Positions 5,745 through 19,156 are shown, counted from the stretch's first letter. The stretch is DNA of 64,000 nt from Rhodospirillales bacterium (GCA_028291405.1 JAQGID010000085.1:1-64000); one strand, 5' to 3'. Numbers and translations: made by a program. Notes: a model not told the origin generated them from the letters alone.

Positions 5745-5825
5745 CCCTCGCCCCCGACTTCGGGGGAGAGGGTTGCTAAGGGTTAGCGAAGCAAAGCTGA
5801 GCTTACCCGCAGCTGGGTGAGGGGG
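5745..5825. repeat. Second copy of the 380-458 intergenic repeat
   Basis: Shares CCCTCGCCCCC...GAGAGGGTTGCTAAGGGTTAGCGA.GCA.AGC.GAGCTTACCCGCAGCTGGGTGAGGGGG with 380-458. Confidence 0.75.
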
Positions 5826-6014
5826 CCTCTTTCCGCCCGGCGCGACCGCGACCTCATTGAGCCACCCCCCGCGACGCTCTACACTCCCGACAACACGCAA
5901 TCGTCCGAAGCCCCTCACCCTCCCATTGCTTCCGCAATGGGCCCCTCCCTCTCCCGCCCAAGCGCGGGCGAGGGGCCCGAGGGATCCACCGGACGCACCA
6001 CCCCGGGAGGCCCC

Positions 6015-6791
6015 ATGCCGCGACGCCTGATCGACATCTCGATGTACCTCGAGAACGACGTCGTCTCGGATCCCCCCGGCTACGGCCCCAAGATCGAGTA
6101 CCGCACCCACCGCGACACCGCCGCCGACGTCGCCGCCTTCTTCCCCGGCCTCGCCACGACGGATCTGCCCGAGGGCGAGGGCTGGGCGATCGAGTGGATC
6201 CGCCTGATGACCCACAACGGCACGCATCTCGACGCGCCCTATCACTTCCACTCGACGATGAACCGCGGCGAGCGCGCCATCACGATCGACGAGGTGCCGC
6301 TCGACTGGTGCCTGCAGCCGGCGGTCAAGCTCGACTTCCGCCATTTCTCCGACGGCTACGTCGCGACTGCGGCCGACGTCGCCGCCGAGCTCGCCCGCAT
6401 CGGCCACGAGCTCCGGCCGCTCGACATCGTCGTCGTCAACACGCGGGCCGGCGCCGCCTACGGCAAGCCGGACTACGTCGCCGCCGGCTGCGGCATGGGC
6501 CGCGAAGCGACGCTCTACTTGCTCGAGCGCGGAATCCGCCTGACCGGTACCGACGCCTGGAGCTGGGACGCGCCCTTCGTCCACACCAAGGACAAATACG
6601 CCGCCAGCGGCGACGCCGGCCTCATCTGGGAAGGCCACAAGGCCGGCCGCGAGATCGGCTATTGCCACCTCGAAAAGCTGCACAACCTGGAGGCGCTGCC
6701 GGCGGACGGGTTTCAGATCAGCTGCTTTCCGGTGAAGATCAGGGGGGCGTCGGCGGGGTGGACAAGAGCGGTGGCGATCGTGGAGGAGTAG
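6015..6791 (+). CDS. Cyclase family protein (kynurenine formamidase-like)
   Basis: ORF with internal ATG at 6015 ([14 protein letters not shown]); [14 protein letters not shown] metal-binding motif of the cyclase family. Confidence 0.85.
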
Positions 6792-6876
6792 CGAAGGTGA
6801 CCATCAACGCAGCGTTGGATTATTTATCCAGCGCGTCCCTCCGCGTGGTTAATAACTTAATGCCAAGGGGTGCTTA

Positions 6877-7776
6877 TCAATCCGCAATGACTTCAGTTGA
6901 GACGACGTGAGTTGCCGTCCCCTTTGCGCCGGGCGGAAGCGCTTTGAACTCCCTTGCTTTGCCCAATGGCCAAGTATCAGTTTGTGCTTCGTGCAGTGAC
7001 TTGATTGGCAAGTCGATCACCTGGCTGGTTGATAGTTTCGCGCCAGAATGACGGTAGATGATTCGTTTTTCTGGACGTTTGTACGGGGAAACTCCAATGG
7101 ATCCTCCAAAAGATCCAGTGTTACATATGATTATATTGCAATAAATCATGCGGGAGAGTGCTTCGGCCGCGTGATCGAACGTATGAATGTCTTTATTATA
7201 TGAAAGAACGAAAAGGTGATGAATATTAAGCCTATAAGTCGCAACTCGCTCAAGATCCAGAAGGTCGAAGCACACGACAACCGCAAAACGTCCGAAACTG
7301 CCGGCTTCGAAGAGCCAAATCTCAGGTACACTACGGAACTCGTAGCCTAGACCCAAAAGCATCTGCTCTTCTTCGTGCGATGAATATGTTTTCCCGACGT
7401 AGCGGATTGTCGCTTTCGACGAATGGCGGGTCCCCCATCGATTTGGAATTATTACGGCGGCGCGATTTCTAGCTGCGACGGGAGATGAACCGGGGACCGG
7501 ATCAAAATCCAGCCCTCCGATAATGATGCAATTCATCTGCGATGCAATGCGCCGTAACCGCGAAATAAATCCGAGAGGCACGGCTACCTCCGGTAGCAAA
7601 ACGATATCTGGCTTTGGAGCCTCTAAGGCAAGCGAGGCAAGGTGCTGTTGTATTTCCGCTACAGCGCGCTCTTCCTCGATATTCGACATATTAACTCCTG
7701 CCGACCATGCAGCGTCGGAATCGACCGTCGTTTGTATGATTCCTACGCGAAGCCAATCTCGTAATGGCCCACTCAT
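6877..7776 (-). CDS. Nitrilase/carbon-nitrogen hydrolase-fold protein of RT cassette
   Basis: 299 aa; candidate catalytic Glu (LLPEVAVP), Lys (RYVGKTYSS), Cys (VVVCFDLLDLE); ATG overlaps upstream stop (ATGA). Confidence 0.8.
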   Translation of the reverse strand: MSGPLRDWLRVGIIQTTVDSDAAWSAGVNMSNIEEERAVAEIQQHLASLALEAPKPDIVLLPEVAVPLGFISRLRRIASQMNCIIIGGLDFDPVPGSSPVAARNRAAVIIPNRWGTRHSSKATIRYVGKTYSSHEEEQMLLGLGYEFRSVPEIWLFEAGSFGRFAVVVCFDLLDLERVATYRLNIHHLFVLSYNKDIHTFDHAAEALSRMIYCNIIICNTGSFGGSIGVSPYKRPEKRIIYRHSGAKLSTSQVIDLPIKSLHEAQTDTWPLGKAREFKALPPGAKGTATHVVSTEVIAD

Positions 7777-9452
7777 GGGTCGTTATCCATATCCATGAGA
7801 TCCACCGCGGCTCCGACCAACTGAATGACATTCATCGGAATCAACTGACGCGGAGCATGGTCGAGCACGCTGATCTGGCCACTGGCAAGGGTCCTTTGCG
7901 CGTTCACGATAGCTTCAGAAAGCCCTTCGACGTCGAGAATCAGTGGCGGATCGGTCGTCGTATCGTTGATCGAAGTCACGTTTTGGTCCCCAAAAAATGC
8001 CCATGGGTCCATACGCATCACTGCTGTCTCGGCGCTTCGTGGCAATAGTGCGGCTTCGATGATGGCGTGCGAATGTGAAGACAGCGGGATCTCTTCCAGC
8101 GATGCCTTAACAAACCTAGCTGTATCACGTTCTAGGCCTCTGACGTTCCAAGCGGCAGGCAACCGAAAGTCGCGTTTTACCAATCCCAGAAGTAGCAATC
8201 CGCACCCTCTTAGTCGCGCTCTCCAGCGGGCATGAGTGTCATTGTCATCAATGGTCGTCGGGGGCTGACGGCGAAAATCCTGAATTGGAAAGCGGGTCAG
8301 GGAAATTCCGGGCTTTGCAGAGCTGGCAACGTGTTTCCACGTCTCCCATGTCCAGCGCGCCTCGACGAAAATGCCAGGAGCTGGAGCTTCAGAAAGCCAC
8401 GCCCTCGGGAGTAGAACATTTGCGGGATGGAGTTCATCAAGGACCGTGATTTCGAGACCGGGAAATTCCCGGATGCGCTTCAGCAACTGCCGCAAGATTT
8501 CTAAAGCGGTCCATTCGCTCGCACGGGGATCATAGGGATCGCGCGCCACCAGGGAATTGAGCCAATCGACCCAATCAAGAGCTGTTAAACGATCTTTCTT
8601 GCTTGCGATTTCTTTTTGGTGACGGCGAAGACGACGTACGACCAAAGGCGGTCTTGAGAATACAGTGAGATCGCTGGGTTGGGTCGACGTCTGTTGATCC
8701 AAGAGCCAACCTGCGTCCGTTTTGCTGAGGGTCCGAAGGCCAGCACGGGCAAGATAATCGGCTTGCCTTATTGGTAGGCTTCGTGGTCCTTTGCGCAAGC
8801 TCTCCCAGTCAAGCCGGACTGTCGGATCGTGTTGAGGCGCAGTAACTTTCCAGATCGGCCCAGGATCGATTCCATCATGGCGAAGCACACCGTCTAACCA
8901 GTGCGTCCAAACCCCAATGGGGAATCCTGTGCTCTTGTTCCAGATGCTTGAAGCGGCAGTCAAAGAAGGAGGCCGTACTTGGACCGCGAGAGCCTTAAGA
9001 CCTTCGTGCCCATGAGCGCCGTTGCGGTTGAGCGTATCCACCGCGCAGGCTAAAGCGGCATAGAAACAAGCTCGCGCCGACATTGAGGCAACGTCTTGCG
9101 TGGGGCCTTTTAACATTGAAGCTAATGTCGAATGGATCTCTTTATCGCCTATACTATTTAGATAGAAATTTGCCGCGGTGCGTTGTCGCTGGAGGATTCG
9201 TTGATTGTTTACGTCAAATGCTGCTGTCGCCATGTGGCGAGCAATTGTTTGTAGTGCTAAGGGTCGGAGATATTCCGCTAAAGGACTCTGGTCATCGTCG
9301 AAATGCTCGAAAATCCATCTGAGGACGCGGCAGGTTCCGTTGTGTCCGGTTATGCGACAATAGTCCAATACGCGAATGAATAATCTTGACTTGTCCGGGT
9401 GGTCGCAAAACGCTTGGAAAATTAACTTGAAATAATGATCTATTCTTTTTTT
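7773..9452 (-). CDS. C-terminal region of the reverse transcriptase protein (different frame from N-terminal part)
   Basis: Frame of the 7773-9779 ORF; protein-like from KKRIDHYFKLIFQAFCDHPDKSRLFIRVLDYCRITGHNG onward, low-quality sequence before it; continuous with the RT after a 1-nt shift at the A8 run. Confidence 0.65.
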   Translation of the reverse strand, partial: KKRIDHYFKLIFQAFCDHPDKSRLFIRVLDYCRITGHNGTCRVLRWIFEHFDDDQSPLAEYLRPLALQTIARHMATAAFDVNNQRILQRQRTAANFYLNSIGDKEIHSTLASMLKGPTQDVASMSARACFYAALACAVDTLNRNGAHGHEGLKALAVQVRPPSLTAASSIWNKSTGFPIGVWTHWLDGVLRHDGIDPGPIWKVTAPQHDPTVRLDWESLRKGPRSLPIRQADYLARAGLRTLSKTDAGWLLDQQTSTQPSDLTVFSRPPLVVRRLRRHQKEIASKKDRLTALDWVDWLNSLVARDPYDPRASEWTALEILRQLLKRIREFPGLEITVLDELHPANVLLPRAWLSEAPAPGIFVEARWTWETWKHVASSAKPGISLTRFPIQDFRRQPPTTIDDNDTHARWRARLRGCGLLLLGLVKRDFRLPAAWNVRGLERDTARFVKASLEEIPLSSHSHAIIEAALLPRSAETAVMRMDPWAFFGDQNVTSINDTTTDPPLILDVEGLSEAIVNAQRTLASGQISVLDHAPRQLIPMNVIQLVGAAVDLMDMDNDP

Positions 9453-10980
9453 TGTATCTACTAAAGTCAATGTCTCGCCAAATTTTGAATGATTGTTCGG
9501 CAATCTCTCTTTTTTCTTTCTCGGCGGGACCTTCATTTTCAGATTTTTGTGAGTTAAGCCGAGCGAATTCCCTCCAGGCATCAAGTAGGTCAATAGAGGG
9601 GCTAAACGCAACTGGAACAAGAGTTGCGATGCGACCCGCTGCGAATGCCGCCCGTGTGTCTGACCGGATTTCGCGATCGGGCAAATCGGCCAAAAGCAAC
9701 CATTCGAGTTCCCGAAGTCGTTGATCTCTGGAATCCTCTGAGAGGATGTCGAAAGCGGTACCGGCCAATTCCGAGACAAGCGCGAGAGTCTTAGTCATTA
9801 ATTTGGAGGGATGGCTACCGTCGAGTTTGGATAGAGTCTTCGCCTTAGAGACTATCTCTTCGTCTGCATCAATTTTAAAGGCTTGGGCCATCTCTTCGGG
9901 ATCAAATTTGTCCGGTGAGATATTTGGCCCTACGCCTAATCGGCGAAGCGCCTTTTCGTAACGTCTTATCCACGCGCGAAGCTCATCGAAATCGTACGCG
10001 AGTATCGCGTGATCGTCGACAAATCGAAAATGGGCGATACGGTGGTTTCGCCGCAATCGTTGATCCGTCCAGAGATCGAGCCGGAGCATCGCAACGTTAG
10101 ACAGGAACCCCGCCACCATTAGGCCGGTCGGAATTCCGTCGAAGGGGCCCGCCCCCGTTTCCGGCTGCACGATTGGATTTCCGAGTAGGCGACTCCCGAC
10201 GTTCCCAACTTTAAAATCAAGCATCCGATCGATAAGTTCCCGGAGCCACATGTCATCGTTGAAATCGGCTAAGTACTTTTGAAAACCGTTTGTAATAGAA
10301 TGCCTGGAAATCTGTGGGTAAAATCTCTCTAGATCGATCGAAGCATAGTAGAGAATTGACGTGGTTACCGGACGCCAGTGCGCACGGTCTAGATAGAAAG
10401 GCTTGTCGGAATGATTTAGCGCGCTCTTTTCCGATGCGTCAAGTTGCTCTTCGTCTTCGAGAGCATGAACCATTAGCCGTGCAGAAAGAGATAAGTGCCG
10501 GCGGAAAAGTGGCCAACTGTGCTTAAATCTGCGATAGAGGTTTCCGCTCGAATGGCGGTAAGGTCCGATTTCTAAATGAGAAAGCCCTTCGTCTTTCTCT
10601 TCAAACCAAGCCGCCTTATAGAGCCTATGTCCATAGCTCCATGCTGGCATCCTTGAATCAAGGGTCGGACCTATAACATTGACGAGAGCGATCCATGCGA
10701 CTTGATCTCTTACCGAGACGTGGAAGCTTTGACGAAGTCGCGGGTTCCCGTATTTGTCTGGCTTCTTAGGCTGGGGAATAAGAGCCAAGCGGTGCAAGCA
10801 ATAGGAAAGATCTAAGAAGTCGTGCGCAATTGACCTTAGATTGCGTTCGAGGTCCAGTTCAAAGGCGGCGACTTCGCCAAAATTAACGGAACCATCGGCG
10901 CTTTCGTATAATCGGCGTGCCTTCTGCCATGCCCATGTTAGATTTTCGCGGCCTGCAACAAGTTCGCGAATTCTGCTCAC
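9292..10980 (-). CDS. Reverse transcriptase (UG/Abi-type, RNA-directed DNA polymerase), N-terminal part; genuine frame probably ends near 9446-9453
   Basis: 562-aa ORF, GTG start overlapping primase TGA (GTGA); motif A YASIDLERFYPQI, motif B GIPTGLMVAGFLSN, motif C HFRFVDDHAIL, motif D LGVGPNISPDK. Confidence 0.9.
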   Translation of the reverse strand: MSRIRELVAGRENLTWAWQKARRLYESADGSVNFGEVAAFELDLERNLRSIAHDFLDLSYCLHRLALIPQPKKPDKYGNPRLRQSFHVSVRDQVAWIALVNVIGPTLDSRMPAWSYGHRLYKAAWFEEKDEGLSHLEIGPYRHSSGNLYRRFKHSWPLFRRHLSLSARLMVHALEDEEQLDASEKSALNHSDKPFYLDRAHWRPVTTSILYYASIDLERFYPQISRHSITNGFQKYLADFNDDMWLRELIDRMLDFKVGNVGSRLLGNPIVQPETGAGPFDGIPTGLMVAGFLSNVAMLRLDLWTDQRLRRNHRIAHFRFVDDHAILAYDFDELRAWIRRYEKALRRLGVGPNISPDKFDPEEMAQAFKIDADEEIVSKAKTLSKLDGSHPSKLMTKTLALVSELAGTAFDILSEDSRDQRLRELEWLLLADLPDREIRSDTRAAFAAGRIATLVPVAFSPSIDLLDAWREFARLNSQKSENEGPAEKEKREIAEQSFKIWRDIDFSRYKKKNRSLFQVNFPSVLRPPGQVKIIHSRIGLLSHNRTQRNLPRPQMDFRAFRR

Positions 10981-12026
10981 TTTGACTTCCGAGTATGACG
11001 GAGATATTCATTGAGATCCTTACCTACTGGTAGGGATTTTGTAACGCTCTGGATACCTGCGCGGCGAAAGTCCGTCGTAAGCCTAGTCCGCATATCCATC
11101 CCTGCCTTATCGTTATCGGGAACTATGTACACGGTCCTGCCCCGGAGGGCTCGAAAAACATTCGTCGGGAAGTGCGAACCCGCACCGGGAAGCCCGATAG
11201 CTGCTAGGTCTAGTTCGTGAGCCGACAGCACATCTGTAGCTCCTTCGCAGATATATATCTCCCGCGATCCGGCTAGGGCTTCGAGGTTGTAAATTGGCTT
11301 TTCAATCCCGCGGGGTGCCATCCAGCGTGGCCCTTCATAACCGGGTAATATCCTCGTCTGGAGGTACACAATCCGCCCCCGCTCGATGAAGGGGAAGAGT
11401 ACGCTCGGACTAGGGAAGATCGTCGACATCCCACGTGCGTCCCGCTTGAGTAGCCCGGCTTGCCTTACGGCCGCTAGTCCGAACCGCCGAATAATCTGTT
11501 GAATGGCTGCCTTGGTATCGCCCAAGAAGCCGAGGCGGAAGTGAGACATGGTTGCTCGACTAAAGCCTCTGTCCGACAGATACATCACGGCTTCTTCGCG
11601 CAAAGGATGATCAGCCAGAAGAGCTTCGTAGATCTCCGGATTTGCGACGAACTCTGACGCCGGGGCAGAAACAACCGACTCGGTGATTAATGGGGCGCTG
11701 ACCTTTGCTGCAAACTTAGAGTGACTGATTCGCGGAGCTCCGAGATTGTAGCTTTGTCGAAGCCAAAGAATGGCGTCCCGCATCGACCATCTTTGAATCA
11801 GCGCAACCAAATCTATTGAATCCCCAGCGCGTCCACAGCCGTAACACCGCCATCTATTGGTCTTTCTGTTGAAGCAGAACGACGGATTGATGTCAGGATG
11901 ATCTGGAAAGGGGCATCGGATACTTCCCCGCCCGCTGCGCGTTATGCCAATACGGGACGCGACATCCAAAATGCTCAGAGCCCTAATCTCGTCGAGGGCG
12001 CTGACCCGGCGAATGGCGGTGGTCAT
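10977..12026 (-). CDS. CHC2 zinc-finger / TOPRIM primase-like protein
   Basis: Start at ATG 12026 (MTTAIRRVSALDEIRALSILDVA); CPFPDHPDINPSFCFNRKTNRWRCYGCGRAGDSIDL zinc finger; TOPRIM motifs CEGATDVLSA and VPDNDKAG. Confidence 0.85.
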   Translation of the reverse strand: MTTAIRRVSALDEIRALSILDVASRIGITRSGRGSIRCPFPDHPDINPSFCFNRKTNRWRCYGCGRAGDSIDLVALIQRWSMRDAILWLRQSYNLGAPRISHSKFAAKVSAPLITESVVSAPASEFVANPEIYEALLADHPLREEAVMYLSDRGFSRATMSHFRLGFLGDTKAAIQQIIRRFGLAAVRQAGLLKRDARGMSTIFPSPSVLFPFIERGRIVYLQTRILPGYEGPRWMAPRGIEKPIYNLEALAGSREIYICEGATDVLSAHELDLAAIGLPGAGSHFPTNVFRALRGRTVYIVPDNDKAGMDMRTRLTTDFRRAGIQSVTKSLPVGKDLNEYLRHTRKSK

Positions 12027-12034
12027 TTTGCGAC

Positions 12035-12925
12035 CTAAACTTGCCGTCGGAATCGGGTCTTTGCCGTCATGCGAAATAAATTTGGCGTCAGCGCTTTGCC
12101 ATTTTTTATAGCCTCTAAAGATGCGAGTTCCTTGTCCACGTCGTCGATCGGAATGTCTTTCCACCACGCTCGAGGATAACCATTCTGCCCGTCATTCCAG
12201 CGATAACCTCGGCGCTTTAACTCAATGCGCGAATCATAGGGAGCTCCGTCAGCGAACACTCTCATGTCGATTCGACGTGCATTTTGTAGAAGCGCTGATA
12301 ACACGGGAGTATTTGAGCGCGGAAGAGTGAGCGAGAGAATATGTACAACTGCGTTACAGTCATCAATTGCGCGGTGTGGATCGTAAAATCTGCCAAAACT
12401 ATGCGCGATGTACTCGAGCCTAGTTCCAGTTATACCCTCTGATCGCCACGGAATTTCGGTTGCCGAGCAAGCCCATGGTAGATCAATGAACGCGGGGACT
12501 AATGCTTCGCAAAATGGTCGGTCAAAGGCAGCATTATGCGCGATAATGAGGGTAGCGTCGGCTAAAAAGGTTTCGACGTCATTACCTGAGATTCGCTGGC
12601 CTCGAACATCGTGAGCATGAATTCCGGTCAGATCCGAAATGATTTTAGGGATTGCGACGTTTGGTTGATTGAAGGACTGAAAGGTTGAGATAATTTGGCC
12701 AACGTGCCCTTCGCGATCAAAGAGGAATTTGATCATCCCGAGTTCAATGACTTCATCGATCTCTACGTCTAGGCCGGTCGTCTCAACGTCGACGGCTACT
12801 CCAACCAAGGCATCGGCAACGAGAGCGTCGAATGAGGATGCCTTCGGAAATCGTTTCAATACTCGGTAGTCGCCAGTGTTCTCTAACAGAAAACGTGCGG
12901 CTTCGATTGCGACGTCCTCAGTCAC
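12035..12925 (-). CDS. DEDDh 3'-5' exonuclease (DnaQ/Pol III epsilon-like)
   Basis: Exo motifs VDVETTGLD, AHNAAFDRPF and HRAIDDCNA; C-terminal GYRWNDGQNGYPRAWW; GTG start. Confidence 0.85.
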   Translation of the reverse strand: MTEDVAIEAARFLLENTGDYRVLKRFPKASSFDALVADALVGVAVDVETTGLDVEIDEVIELGMIKFLFDREGHVGQIISTFQSFNQPNVAIPKIISDLTGIHAHDVRGQRISGNDVETFLADATLIIAHNAAFDRPFCEALVPAFIDLPWACSATEIPWRSEGITGTRLEYIAHSFGRFYDPHRAIDDCNAVVHILSLTLPRSNTPVLSALLQNARRIDMRVFADGAPYDSRIELKRRGYRWNDGQNGYPRAWWKDIPIDDVDKELASLEAIKNGKALTPNLFRMTAKTRFRRQV

Positions 12926-13280
12926 GCTGGTTTCTCATACTGCAATTCTTACTCCGGCATCGGTCGCGTAAGTGTACGAGCAAACGACAGCAATTGCACC
13001 TGGGTCGCGATTAATTTTTGTCCAGTGAGTCGCTTTCGCAAGACGATGATCCACGCCGAGGGGCGCCTATAAACGGGCCACGCTCGCGACATTGAACCGG
13101 TTAAGTTCCGCCACCGGCGACCCCGGGCCTCTACAACCTTCTGCGACAGTTAGCGAAGCGGAATTTTCTTGACACATCATGTCCGATATGGAACAAGTAT
13201 GGCGCTTTTGGTTCTTTGACATCGTCAAATCCGACCCGGCGCGCCTCGCCACCAAAATCGAACACTCGCGCCTGCATTTT

Positions 13281-13298
13281 CCCCTGCATTAACAGGGG
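13281..13298. repeat. Small perfect hairpin CCCCTG-CATTAA-CAGGGG
   Basis: 6-bp stem, 6-nt loop in the island's right-hand noncoding flank. Confidence 0.5.
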
Positions 13299-13376
13299 AC
13301 TTGTGAATTTATCGCGCCCCGATCCTTGCACCCCAGAACCACCCGCCGCGCCTGTATCCCGCCTGTTTTTACAGAC

Positions 13377-13406: not shown

Positions 13407-14045
<639 letters not shown>

Positions 14046-14089
14046 GTCTCACCTCGCCCTATCGACGCGCGATGCGTCCTCCCGTCAGC

Positions 14090-14731
14090 TTAGCGCGGGC
14101 GGCGGCGGGTGGGCGGGATTTCTTCGCTTGCGGGGGCCGGCACGGCGCGCGCCGCCTCGGTCTTGCGGCGCTGCACCGAGACGATCTCGCCGGTTGCCGG
14201 ATCGGGCAGGACCGGCGTCGTCGTCGACAGCAGATCGTATTCGGCGAGCGGCAGATGCTGGTCCTTGGACGGCACCTGCCGGCTCATGACGTGCAGCACG
14301 GCATCGCCGGTCTGCCCGTCGTCGGCGAAGGGCAGCATGATCGTCTCGGCGTCCATCCAGGTGCCGTTGAAGACGAAGCTTCCGTCGCCGTGGAGCACGG
14401 CCGGGGTCGCGATCGCGCGAAGCAGCGGCGCCTCGAGCAGATGATGCGACGACATGAACTCGGCGAGCCGCCGGCCGCGCGACGGCTTGGTGAGGGTCCC
14501 ATAGATCGCGTCGCCGGCGAGGCGGCAGAGAAACGTCCGCTCCTCGGGCAGGAACTGATAAAGCGCCAGGAAGGGCAACACCGCCGGGATGGCGCAGGGG
14601 TCGAGGTCGCGGCGCCGCGGCAGCGCGTTGCCGCGGCGGATCTCGAACCAGTGGGTCAGCGCCGCCCGGACGAGCGGGTCGGCGACATGCGGAAAATGAG
14701 CGAGCGACAACACCGAAGGTCCTCCGGACAT
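14090..14731 (-). CDS. PAS_5-type PAS domain protein embedded in urease operon
   Basis: 213 aa; HWFEIRRGNALPRRRDLDP...LYQFLPEERTFLCRLAGDAI pattern of PAS_5 proteins. Confidence 0.65.
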   Translation of the reverse strand: MSGGPSVLSLAHFPHVADPLVRAALTHWFEIRRGNALPRRRDLDPCAIPAVLPFLALYQFLPEERTFLCRLAGDAIYGTLTKPSRGRRLAEFMSSHHLLEAPLLRAIATPAVLHGDGSFVFNGTWMDAETIMLPFADDGQTGDAVLHVMSRQVPSKDQHLPLAEYDLLSTTTPVLPDPATGEIVSVQRRKTEAARAVPAPASEEIPPTRRRPR

Positions 14732-14791
14732 TCGACCATTAAGGCAGGAAATCGTAAAGATTATACCCGCGCTGGCGAGGCGGCGCGGAAT

Positions 14792-15463
14792 TCAGGAACG
14801 GAACAGGCGGGCATATTGCGACTCGTGGCGCATCGACGTCCAGTCCACCATCGGCGCGGCGGCGCCGATTTCGTCGAGCGGCGCTGCCAGAGCCGCCTCG
14901 GCGGCGGCGCGAACCGCGGTTTCCAGCGCCGCCACCGCCCGCTGCCCGTCGCTCTGGCCGAGCGGAACGAGCCGTACGCCGGCGGAGACGAGGTTGCTGG
15001 AAAGGCCTTGCAGATAGGCCGCCAGCGCCTGGGCGAGCGGGACATGGCCGGCGAGGGCAATTGCGGCGGCGACCGGCAGGGCGACGGCATCGCCGTTGCG
15101 CCGGGCGAATTCGTCGAGGCGGGGATCGGGCCAGGCGGTGCGGGTGATCGTCAGGAAGGAGGCGCCCTGCTGCATCGTCTCCAGCGCGGTCTCGGCGGTG
15201 CCGCGGAAGGCGGCGGCGAGGGCGGCGACCGCGTCGAGCGCGGCGGGATCGTCGGCGGCGTCCCAGGCGGCGCGGAACAGCATCGCATCGACCCGCCCGG
15301 CGCCCGCCTCGAGGATCCAGCCGATCCAGTCGACCAGCGAGACGCGGTCGGTGACCAGCCCGGCCTCGACCGCGTATTCGATCCCGTGGCTATAGGAGAA
15401 GCCGCCGATCGGATAGGCCGGCGAGAACCACGCCATCAGCCGATAGAGCCCGGCGGAGTCCAT
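14792..15463 (-). CDS. ureF: Urease accessory protein UreF
   Basis: LMAWFSPAYPIGGFSYSHGIEYAVEAG N-terminus. Confidence 0.92.
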   Translation of the reverse strand: MDSAGLYRLMAWFSPAYPIGGFSYSHGIEYAVEAGLVTDRVSLVDWIGWILEAGAGRVDAMLFRAAWDAADDPAALDAVAALAAAFRGTAETALETMQQGASFLTITRTAWPDPRLDEFARRNGDAVALPVAAAIALAGHVPLAQALAAYLQGLSSNLVSAGVRLVPLGQSDGQRAVAALETAVRAAAEAALAAPLDEIGAAAPMVDWTSMRHESQYARLFRS

Positions 15464-15939
15464 TACGAGCCGTGGTGATGGTGGTCGTGATCGTGATGCG
15501 TCGCCGCCGAATCATAAGCGCCGCTCTCGGGGTCGAAGGGCGCGCTGATCGGCCTGACGCCGGCGCCGAGCCCCTGCAGCATCTCGGCGATGACATGGTC
15601 GGCGCGGATGAGGATGCGCCCGCCGCCGATCTGCGCCGCGAGATGGCGGTTGCCGAGATGCCAGGCGAGCCGCGCCAACGCCGCCGGCGAGGCGGCGGTG
15701 ACCTCGAGGAGATCCTCCGGCGCGGCGACGACCCGGACATAGGCGCCGCCGGAAAGCTTCAGCCCGTCGCCGTGGTGAAGGGTCGCCGTCGCCGGCAGGT
15801 CGAGGAGGAACTCGGTGCCGCCGGTCGCCGTCATCGCCAGGCGCCGGCGATGGCGGTCGTGATGGGCGAGGGTGATGCAGTCGCGCTCGGCCTCTGGGGG
15901 CCAAGTCCCGGCAGCAGCGATCTCGGTGACGCGTTCCAT
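15463..15939 (-). CDS. ureE: Urease accessory protein UreE
   Basis: Position between ureC and ureF; C-terminal His-rich THHDHDHHHHGS; GNRHLAAQ. Confidence 0.92.
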   Translation of the reverse strand: MERVTEIAAAGTWPPEAERDCITLAHHDRHRRRLAMTATGGTEFLLDLPATATLHHGDGLKLSGGAYVRVVAAPEDLLEVTAASPAALARLAWHLGNRHLAAQIGGGRILIRADHVIAEMLQGLGAGVRPISAPFDPESGAYDSAATHHDHDHHHHGS

Positions 15940-15940
15940 G

Positions 15941-17653
15941 TCAGAACAGGAAATAGCGCTGCGCCATCGGCAGCGTCTCGGCCGGGGCGCAGGTCAGGAG
16001 AGCGCCGTCGGCGCGGACCTCGTAGGTCTCGGGGTCGACCTCGATCTTCGGGGTCGCGCTGTTGTTGATCATGCTGGCCTTGCCGATGCCGCCCCTGGTG
16101 TTCTCGACCGCCAGCATCGGCCGCCCGACGCCGATCGCCTCGCCGAGGTTCTTCGCCAGCGCCGCCCCCGAGACGAAGAGCACCGAGCTCTGCTGGCTGC
16201 TGCGGCCGAAGGCGCCGAACATCGGCCGATAATGCACCGGCTGCGGCGTCGGGATCGAGGCATTGGGATCGCCCATCGCAGCCGCCGCGATCGAGCCGCA
16301 TTTCAGCACCATGTCGGGCTTGACCCCGAAGAAGGCCGGCGACCAGACGACGAGATCGGCGAGCTTCCCCACCTCGACCGACCCGACATGCCTGGAGATG
16401 CCCTGGGCGATCGCCGGGTTGATCGTGTATTTGGCGATGTAGCGCTTGCAGCGGGCGTTGTCGTTATCGCCCGTCTCCTCGGGCAAGGGGCCGCGCTGGC
16501 GCTTCATCTTGTCGGCGGTCTGCCAGGTCCGGATGATGACCTCGCCGACCCGCCCCATCGCCTGGCTATCCGACGAGATCATCGAGAAGGCGCCGAAGTC
16601 GTGCAGGATGTCCTCGGCGGCGATCGTCTCGCGGCGGATGCGGCTCTCGGCGAAGGCGACGTCCTCGGCGATGCGCTGGTCGAGGTGGTGGCAGACCATC
16701 AGCATGTCGAGATGCTCGTCGAGCGTGTTGACCGTGTAGGGCCGCGTCGGGTTTGTCGAAGACGGCAGAACGTTTGGTTCGCCGCAGACCCGGATGATAT
16801 CCGGCGCATGGCCGCCGCCGGCGCCCTCGGTGTGGAAGGCATGGATCGTGCGCCCCTTGAAGGCGGCGATCGTATGCTCGACGAAGCCGCTCTCGTTCAG
16901 CGTGTCGGTGTGGATCGCGACCTGCACGTCCATCTCGTCGGCGACCGAGAGGCAGGCGTCGATCGAGGCCGGCGTCGTCCCCCAATCCTCGTGCAGCTTG
17001 AGCCCGCAGGCGCCGGCCTCGACCTGCTCGACGAGCCCGGCCGGCAAGGTCGCGTTGCCCTTGCCGAAGAAGCCGAGGTTCATCGGGAAGGCCTCCGCCG
17101 CCTGCAGCATCCGCATCAGATGCCACGGTCCCGGCGTGCAGGTCGTGGCGTTGGTGCCGGTCGCCGGGCCGGTGCCGCCGCCCATCATCGTCGTGACGCC
17201 GCTGTTCAGCGCCTCGTCGATCTGCTGCGGCGCGATGAAGTGGATGTGGACGTCGATGCCGCCGGCGGTGACGATCTTGCCCTCGCCGGCGATGATCTCG
17301 GTGCCCGGCCCGATGACGATGTCGACGCCGGGCTGGACGTCCGGGTTGCCGGCCTTGCCGATCGCATGGATGCGGCCGTCGCGGATCGCGATGTCGGCCT
17401 TGACGATCCCCCAATGGTCGAGGATCAGCGCGTTGGTGATGACGGTATCGACGGCGCCCTGGGCGCGGCTCGCCTGGCCCTGGCCCTGGCCGTCGCGGAT
17501 CACCTTGCCGCCGCCGAACTTGACCTCCTCGCCGTAGATCGTGCGGTCCGCCTCGACCTCGATGAAGAGCTCGGTATCGGCGAGGCGGATCTTGTCGCCG
17601 ACCGTCGGCCCGAACATGTCGGCATAGAGGGCGCGGGAAATCGTGTAAGCCAT
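15941..17653 (-). CDS. ureC: Urease subunit alpha
   Basis: 570 aa; [18 protein letters not shown] (lysine ligand), MVCHHL, full-length UreC. Confidence 0.98.
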
Positions 17654-17656
17654 GGC

Positions 17657-17962
17657 TCAGAGCTTCCCGTTGACCTTGCCGTTGAACCCATAGACCTCGC
17701 GCCGCCCGGCATAAGGCACCAGTGTCACGCTTCGCTGCTGCCCCGGCTCGAAGCGCACCGCAGTGCCGGCCGGGATGTCGAGCCGCATGCCGCGAGCCTT
17801 GTCGCGGTCGAAGGCGAGCGCCGGGTTGGTCTCGTAGAAATGATAGTGGCTGCCGACCTGGATCGGCCGGTCGCCGGTATTGGCGACCTCGAGCGCCACG
17901 GTGGCGCGGCCTTCGTTGAGGACGATGTCGCCGGCCGCCGGGATGATCTCTCCGGGAATCAT
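17657..17962 (-). CDS. ureB: Urease subunit beta
   Basis: [41 protein letters not shown]. Confidence 0.97.
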
Positions 17963-17970
17963 GATGCCTC

Positions 17971-18273
17971 TCAGCGGATCGGGTCGTGGACGGTGACGAG
18001 CTTGGTCCCGTCCGGGAAGGTCGCCTCGATTTGGACGTCGTGGATCATCTCGGGGATGCCTTCCATCACCTGGTCGCGGCGGACGACCGTCGCCCCGTCG
18101 CGCATCAGCTCGGCGACGCTGCGACCGTCGCGCGCCCCCTCAACGACGAAATCGGTGATCAGCGCGATGGCCTCCGGGTGGTTGAGCTTGACGCCCCGCT
18201 CCAGCCGCTTCCTGGCCACGATCGCCGCCATTGCCACCAGCAGCTTGTCCTTTTCCCGCGAAGTCAGATTCAC
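17971..18273 (-). CDS. ureA: Urease subunit gamma
   Basis: GTG start 18273; [39 protein letters not shown]. Confidence 0.96.
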
Positions 18274-18286
18274 CCGTCGCCCCCTA

Positions 18287-19156
18287 TCAGATCGACCAGA
18301 CGCGCGGCATCCGCGCCGGCAGCCCGGCCGCCGCATGGCGGAAGCCGGCGCAGAAGCGTATGACGTCGCCGCGCAACGCCTGCGCGTCGCGGCCGAGAAA
18401 CCGTGCCACCATGATCCCGTTGACGATCGTTGCCGCCGCCCGGCAGACCGAATTTTCCAGCAGTGCCCGCGCCGCCTCGAGAAAGCGCGGCGCATCCTCG
18501 GCGGCGTAAAGCACCGTCGCCGCCGCCGCGGCGCCGTCGAAACCGGCCGGCCGGTCGAGCGTCCGTCGCAGATCGCCATCGAGAAGCAGCGCATCGGCCC
18601 AGACGAGCCGATCCCCACGGTAGAGCCGCCAGGAATCGAGCAGCCGGCCGCGCGTCAGAAGCTCACCGAAGGCGGCACGGCCGAAGACCACGATCTCCGC
18701 CACGAGCAGCCGGCCGCCGGGTTCGATGCGGACGGTGTTGCGGCGGGCGAGACGTGCCGCCTCGAAGAGGATCGTCTCCTGCGGCAGATATTCGAGATAG
18801 CCGCCCTCGCCGATGTCGAGCGAGACGTCGATCGCGCAGTCTGGGCCCAGCGAGCGGTAGATCTTCTCCGCCGCCTGCGTCGTCACCGTCGCGCTCGCCC
18901 CGGCATCGGCCGTGATCGCGATGCGGATCGCATCGCCGCCGGTGAGCCCGCCCGAGGTCGTGAGCAGCACCGCGGCGGTCGGATCGCCGGGCTCGACGTG
19001 CGGGAACAAGGCGCGGCACGGCGGTTGCTGGAAGACGCTGGCGACGTGGCTCCGCTTGCCCGCCGCGCCGACGGCGAAGCGGAGATCGAGGACGCCGCGG
19101 CAACGCTCGAGCAGCGTCTCCCCGACGCCGCGGTCAAGGACAGCATCATCGCGCAT
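18287..19156 (-). CDS. ureD: Urease accessory protein UreD
   Basis: [36 protein letters not shown]; operon position. Confidence 0.93.

Follow-up and report, generated by a model that had tools for sequence, protein, structure and literature searches.

The window that we analysed, a 64,000-nt stretch of Rhodospirillales bacterium DNA (GCA_028291405.1 JAQGID010000085.1:1-64000), carries five co-directional reading frames on the minus strand at 6877-12925, all of them where the original prediction had placed them, and together these frames make up a four-gene cassette of exonuclease, primase, reverse transcriptase (RT, split over two frames) and nitrilase. The tight packing that had been described was borne out in each detail: inspection of the sequence gave an exact GTGA overlap between primase and RT (10977-10980) and an exact ATGA overlap between the C-terminal part of the RT and the nitrilase (7773-7776), and a spacer of 8 nt separates the exonuclease stop codon (12035) from the primase ATG (12026). 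The lower-GC setting was likewise evident, GC dropping from ~0.65-0.72 to 0.49-0.55 over 7.0-13.0 kb, with a GC3 of 0.48-0.55 in the operon genes versus 0.96 in the flanking ureG gene and 0.91 in a flanking lhr-like helicase gene. By the GC and GC3 profiles this block extends over 6800-13300 (edges approximate), has the operon as its only content, and lies between a cyclase-like gene (5817-6791, plus strand) and ureG (13407-14045, minus strand). No integrase or transposase is present among the operon frames and no integrase was found in the surroundings, as had been claimed; nor did we find a tRNA within the 64-kb window or direct or inverted repeats of at least 10 nt flanking the block. Our search for an empty site recovered no clean one, the relatives that bear the cyclase gene being without ureG beside it. 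Horizontal acquisition of the operon is part of the overall explanation that we develop below, and we put it forward as tentatively as that explanation as a whole. Beyond the block, 13407-19156 is a urease cluster of ordinary host genes; Pfam matches identify ureD, ureA and ureC, ureG is evident from its sequence, and the remaining frames in between are likely ureB, ureE and ureF. A second frameshift that we suspected at 17971-19156 was rejected, as this region holds ureA and ureD with an over-extended ureA frame overlapping at 18287-18618.

The two middle frames had been taken for an RT gene and a separate gene for its C-terminal part, and here our reading departs from the earlier one. Both frames match the same PADLOC profile, RT_UG6, in succession, with the frame at 9292-10980 covering profile positions 2-394 of 925 (2.6e-154) and that at 7773-9779 covering positions 404-920 (3.7e-125); this profile is thus the best match over the whole RT length, though across two frames, and the next best RT family scored only 4.4e-15. 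Because both frames match RT_UG6 and because each of nine relatives that we identified has one RT, in a single unbroken frame of 1036-1081 residues, we consider the two to be one gene split by a frameshift. The N-terminal part, with the RT domain and the motif HFRFVDDHA (9446-10980, minus strand), ends at an A8 homopolymer (9446-9453, minus strand) at which the reading frame changes, its listed ORF continuing out of frame to 9292, and the C-terminal alpha-helical part follows in the shifted frame (7773-9445, minus strand; listed ORF 7773-9779). The N-terminal part is 55% identical to the RT of a Qipengyuania relative (L003) over residues 5-511, and the L003 matches of the two parts run end to end (8803-10317, then 10312-11961) within one frame of 1064 residues. 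Removing one A from the A8 run gives an RT frame of 1068 residues, the junction of which aligns with L003 without gaps and at equal residue number (DFSRYKKRIDHYF versus DYKRYRKLTAHYF). The single intact RT frame seen in other UG6 operons is therefore absent here; this is a matter of the present copy, and an intact frame does not define the RT group.

We take the break, from this comparison, to be a one-base insertion, either a real lesion or an assembly error. Slippage could also account for it, though this finds no support in the relatives: the idea that slippage on the A8 run, during transcription or translation, serves as a deliberate device to give a fused RT, or that the RT is deliberately made as two subunits, would fit the position of the break at the only A/T run of at least 7 nt in the RT gene and the in-frame ATG (MKVPPRK) that the downstream frame offers ~24 codons ahead of the junction, but with the frame unbroken in 9/9 relatives and the homopolymer absent from the junction position in all six relatives checked, we regard such regulation as improbable. 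Because the RT is frameshifted, this copy of UG6 may be inactive, barring an assembly error or some bypass of the shift, and the frameshift counts against the explanation that we favor for the locus. We accordingly give considerable weight to the possibility that the window holds a decaying, non-functional UG6 remnant, all the more as one relative is clearly decayed (L020:3900-14200, G1460), with an IS3-like transposase gene in its primase gene and an IS66-like one in its SbcB gene. Set against this, the other frames of the window operon are open, the catalytic residues are intact, ~560 codons remain open past the shift, an indel in a homopolymer is the change that most easily arises by error, and we recognised no other broken gene among the window genes examined. 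The other eight relatives are without insertion-sequence damage, so the original prediction does not fall on the ground it had itself named, that all homologous loci be decayed.

The assignment of the RT to the UG/Abi group was upheld, and it can be narrowed to UG6. The Asp pair of RT motif 5 is present in the window (HFRFVDDHA) and the corresponding D326 and D327 are invariant in six relatives. A model of the L003 RT, of moderate quality (pLDDT 67.8, pTM 0.48), shows a long, entirely helical part after the RT core; given this quality, our only claim about the C-terminal fold is that it is largely helical. The fold matches of the model include group II, DGR and DRT enzymes. The RT core does weakly match the group II maturase model TIGR04416 (8.8e-8), which would speak for a mobile element, whether a group II intron, a DGR or a retron-like element, instead of a defense system. 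However, that match scores just 31.6 bits where the cut-off is 300, UG6 at 2.6e-154 is far ahead of every other RT family, the interval 6.7-13.5 kb has no Rfam RNA match, transposases and integrases are missing from the operon frames, and the linkage to nitrilase and primase is conserved (see below); with neither a maturase domain, an ncRNA nor a mobile-element RT model above its cut-off, we consider this origin very unlikely indeed. A blastn comparison of the UG6 operons revealed no conserved upstream sequence, so that, together with the Rfam result, no ncRNA was found.

The partners of the RT are equally recognizable. The primase gene (10977-12026, minus strand; the open frame reaches 12167 but the likely start is the ATG at 12026) encodes a DnaG-like core made up of a CHC2 zinc finger, a DnaG N domain and a TOPRIM domain, without the helicase-binding C-terminus; it matches the PADLOC RTasDnaG-like model (5.5e-93), the Toprim_2, Zn_ribbon_DnaG and DNAG_N models all score above their cut-offs, and the Cys/His zinc ligands and the TOPRIM residues E308, D351 and D353 are invariant in our alignment. 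The last gene of the operon (6877-7776, minus strand) encodes a stand-alone nitrilase of the carbon-nitrogen hydrolase type (RTasNitrilase, 4.5e-101), likely the effector of the system, in which E63, K129, E136 and C169, a catalytic tetrad of the DRT1 type, are invariant; its model (pLDDT 78.7) has carbon-nitrogen hydrolases as PDB fold matches. That the nitrilase would be a separate subunit agrees with what we see, as it is a separate gene in the window and in the nine relatives. The first gene (12035-12925, minus strand) encodes a 296-residue 3'-5' DEDDh exonuclease of the PRK09182 type (NF006615; 2.1e-97, 325.6 bits, cut-off 207), with D46, E48, D135, H184 and D189 invariant in the alignment of relatives, so that both a priming enzyme and an exonuclease are indeed added to the operon. 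We assign these conserved residues to catalysis from what is established for the nitrilase, DnaG and DEDDh families. The E-values of the family matches (1e-93 to 1e-154) and the synteny in 9/9 relatives make a chance assembly of these genes untenable.

These relatives came from two kinds of search. Scanning a single genome from each species yielded four (Qipengyuania L003, Stakelama L004, Sphingobium L005 and Sphingomonas L006), and profile searches of sampled genomes identified five more (L018, L020, L033, L034 and L035). UG6 is rare: profile searches of sampled genomes from the order, the class (385 genomes) and the phylum (399 genomes) of the window found no other, and UG6 was present in one of 398 genomes of another order and in a few of the ~400 and ~300 genomes sampled in and around Sphingomonadales, tallies that include the UG6-bearing genomes on which the sampling was centered. 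A first scan of genome contigs, and several scans of viral contigs, with RT or nitrilase peptides returned no relatives; plasmid records gave no UG6 RT match at 1e-5, and phage records gave a single weak one (27% identity over 28% of the UG6 RT). Alignments of the window with computer-generated variants (A1-A4) served solely in choosing RT-motif search patterns, and none of these variants entered a tree, profile or structure.

In all nine relatives the primase, RT, nitrilase and a DEDDh exonuclease are encoded in one direction by overlapping or closely spaced genes, which is the conserved partner synteny that had been put forward as a check. Gene order takes two forms, the exonuclease gene standing first (exonuclease-primase-RT-nitrilase) in the window, L003 and L006, and last (primase-RT-nitrilase-exonuclease) in the other seven. 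Several of the relatives also have neighbors of interest. Directly downstream of the Qipengyuania operon (L003:12951-18486) are genes for a Z1-domain protein (MzaC-like), a DUF4420 protein (MzaD-like) and a 613-residue protein with a weak match to the PADLOC candidate PDC-M33A, which are probably a second defense system. A tyrosine integrase gene adjoins the L018 operon (L018:2914-4266), suggesting an integrative island. Abutting the primase gene of L033 (L033:11701-16970) are genes for a large UvrD/GajB-like helicase, also RTasHel-like, and for a 631-residue protein without a PADLOC match, possibly a further defense module or extra partners of the RT.

The exonuclease differs in type among these operons. 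PADLOC lists SbcB as the exonuclease partner of UG6, which we take as typical of the group and not as a strict definition, and SbcB is what we found in two of the nine relatives, L018 and L020 (RTasSbcB, 1.7e-231 and 8.3e-108, respectively), with an ExoI C-terminal domain present in L018. The window and the other seven relatives have the PRK09182 type. The window exonuclease matched none of the RT-associated PADLOC models, RTasSbcB giving no match even at E ≤ 1, and a BlastP comparison with the L018 SbcB aligned a mere 20 residues (7e-4). The operon copy is the sole member of the PRK09182 family in the genome of the window, and in each UG6 genome searched with the PRK09182 model (G000 and the genomes of L003-L006) the operon copy was the sole match, except for one extra in Stakelama. 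This extra exonuclease (L016:3999-4883) is encoded away from UG6, near a 964-residue DNA methyltransferase-like protein. In the RT tree the SbcB pair splits off (100/100), the five operons with PRK09182 last are grouped (100/99) and the window joins L003 (100/100), while in the exonuclease tree the window and L003 (99/99) group with the free-standing exonucleases L038 and L039, the remaining UG6 copies lying with others; support for the deep fork (94/97) is slightly below the threshold used. A single clade of UG6 PRK09182 exonucleases was thus not supported. Taken together, the exonuclease slot has been filled by different enzymes at least twice, and perhaps three times.

The original prediction knew of no described system with this gene set, but PADLOC already contains RT_UG6, RTasNitrilase, RTasDnaG-like and RTasSbcB models, and UG6 is a known class of suspected antiviral RTs. 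The UG/Abi RTs were reportedly classified by Mestre et al. in 2022, and the UG6 partners are given here from the PADLOC model names. The literature that we searched yielded no experiments on UG6. The window operon resembles UG6 as modeled in PADLOC in its full-length RT profile, DnaG-like primase, separate nitrilase and DEDDh 3'-5' exonuclease in one operon, and differs in that its exonuclease is PRK09182 rather than SbcB, with its gene first instead of last, and in the split RT frame. Neither the PRK09182 exonuclease nor its interchange with SbcB is captured by the PADLOC UG6 models, and the window operon is in this respect a new variant.

Among characterized systems, the predicted relation to DRT1 (UG1) held up well. 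A search of the PDB with the nitrilase profile identified DRT1 (9yfd) as the sole chain at E ≤ 0.01 (4e-24), the match taking in the greater part of the domain, its active-site cysteine included, and reaching the C-terminal lid region, and 9yfd was also the best match of the RT profile (2.3e-6), although this match ends at residue 328. Of the solved structures, DRT1 is thus the closest to the nitrilase and, at the sequence level, also to the RT, and it shares with UG6 a class 3-like RT and alpha-helical domain working with a nitrilase. The two differ in that DRT1 is one chain of 1229 residues in which RT and nitrilase are fused, whereas UG6 has a separate nitrilase and an added primase and exonuclease, and in that the C-terminal part of the UG6 RT was not matched to DRT1. 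The UG5-nitrilase system (DRT5) also associates an RT with a nitrilase, and the window nitrilase matches the UG5 nitrilase profile (9.4e-42); however, the window RT is far nearer to UG6, the UG5-nitrilase RT profile scoring merely 3e-5, and we know of no primase or exonuclease partner of UG5. In DRT9 (UG17) a 3'-5' ssDNA exonuclease keeps the DNA product of the RT in check (PMC12483538), as we propose by analogy for UG6, but there the exonuclease comes from the host and the RT is of another group, whereas the UG6 exonuclease is operon-encoded.

Bringing these observations together, we infer that the locus is a horizontally acquired UG6-type, DRT1-like abortive-infection operon in which DNA made by the RT would be restrained by the exonuclease and would activate the nitrilase, a reading to which we assign a probability of about 0.45. 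It is favored by the UG6 families, the linkage in every relative and the invariant catalytic residues, by the foreign base composition, the Mza-like neighbors in L003 and the integrase beside the L018 operon, and by what is known of other DRTs. Its DRT1-like character is suggested by the two profile matches to 9yfd, and restraint by the fact that UG6 operons carry either SbcB itself or another DEDDh exonuclease. DRT1, DRT5S and DRT5L make protein-primed DNA, which in DRT1 is template-free; abortive infection and defense by DRT1 depend on the active sites of both enzymes, RT and nitrilase, and assembly is driven by DNA adducts (PMC13275509). DRT9 kills its host cell unless ExoI (sbcB) of the host degrades the DRT9 product, sbcB is essential in UG17 strains, and gp58 of phage T5 competes with ExoI by covering the DNA 3' end (PMC12483538); DRT3 is restrained by RecBCD in a like role (PMC13174585).

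By analogy with these systems, the RT with its alpha-helical domain would synthesize non-genomic DNA, probably with a protein as primer and without a template, on the precedent of DRT1; protein priming is a supposition in UG6, as the priming serine of DRT1 (S402) lacks conservation among other class 3 DRTs (PMC13275509). The DnaG-like primase, whose role is the least certain, may assist, for example with primers for the second strand or in initial priming. In healthy cells the operon's own 3'-5' exonuclease would break this DNA down, as host ExoI does for DRT9; upon infection the DNA would survive, with a phage protein binding its 3' end or inhibiting the nuclease, and the accumulated DNA would assemble and activate the separate nitrilase, which might then destroy an essential amide or amine metabolite so that the cell stops. 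To our knowledge, DRT1 in E. coli does not need a dedicated exonuclease or primase gene, which counts against this scheme.

It also counts against restraint that other tasks are open to the exonuclease, with phage DNA as its target or proofreading as its function. The enzyme may attack phage DNA, or, by trimming or proofreading what the RT makes, it may yield a defined DNA that activates the nitrilase. The window exonuclease does match exonuclease families of the DnaQ and phage polymerase types, and one can also conceive of trimming to length, given that DRT1 adducts of 17-30 nt are the protected remainder after ExoI treatment (PMC13275509). However, the exchange of the non-orthologous SbcB and PRK09182 enzymes suggests that generic degradation from the 3' end suffices, and the known relation between a DRT and an exonuclease is one of restraint (PMC12483538), so that we judge such an attacking or processing role rather unlikely, and we favor a nuclease limiting the DNA product of the RT over the "proofreading-type nuclease" of the original prediction.

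If the exonuclease does restrain the RT, UG6 operons may be self-contained devices in which the RT is the toxin and the nuclease the antitoxin, each with its own interchangeable exonuclease (SbcB or PRK09182, recruited more than once) guarding the DNA of the RT, and phage interference with the nuclease or with the 3' end would trigger the nitrilase; this extension we offer as a conjecture, a little more guardedly than the reading of the locus itself. Host nucleases have recently been shown to restrain the products of DRT9 and DRT3, whereas UG6 operons encode such a nuclease themselves, in a slot where different subfamilies replace one another. A small operon of this kind makes it a testable question whether DRT immunity is set by the synthesis versus the degradation of non-genomic DNA. 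As a physically separate version of the RT-nitrilase pair of DRT1, UG6 is also useful for studying nitrilase activation by DNA and for identifying the nitrilase substrate, and, should the toxin-antitoxin reading be true, it would represent a built-in version of the guarding of DRT9 by host ExoI.
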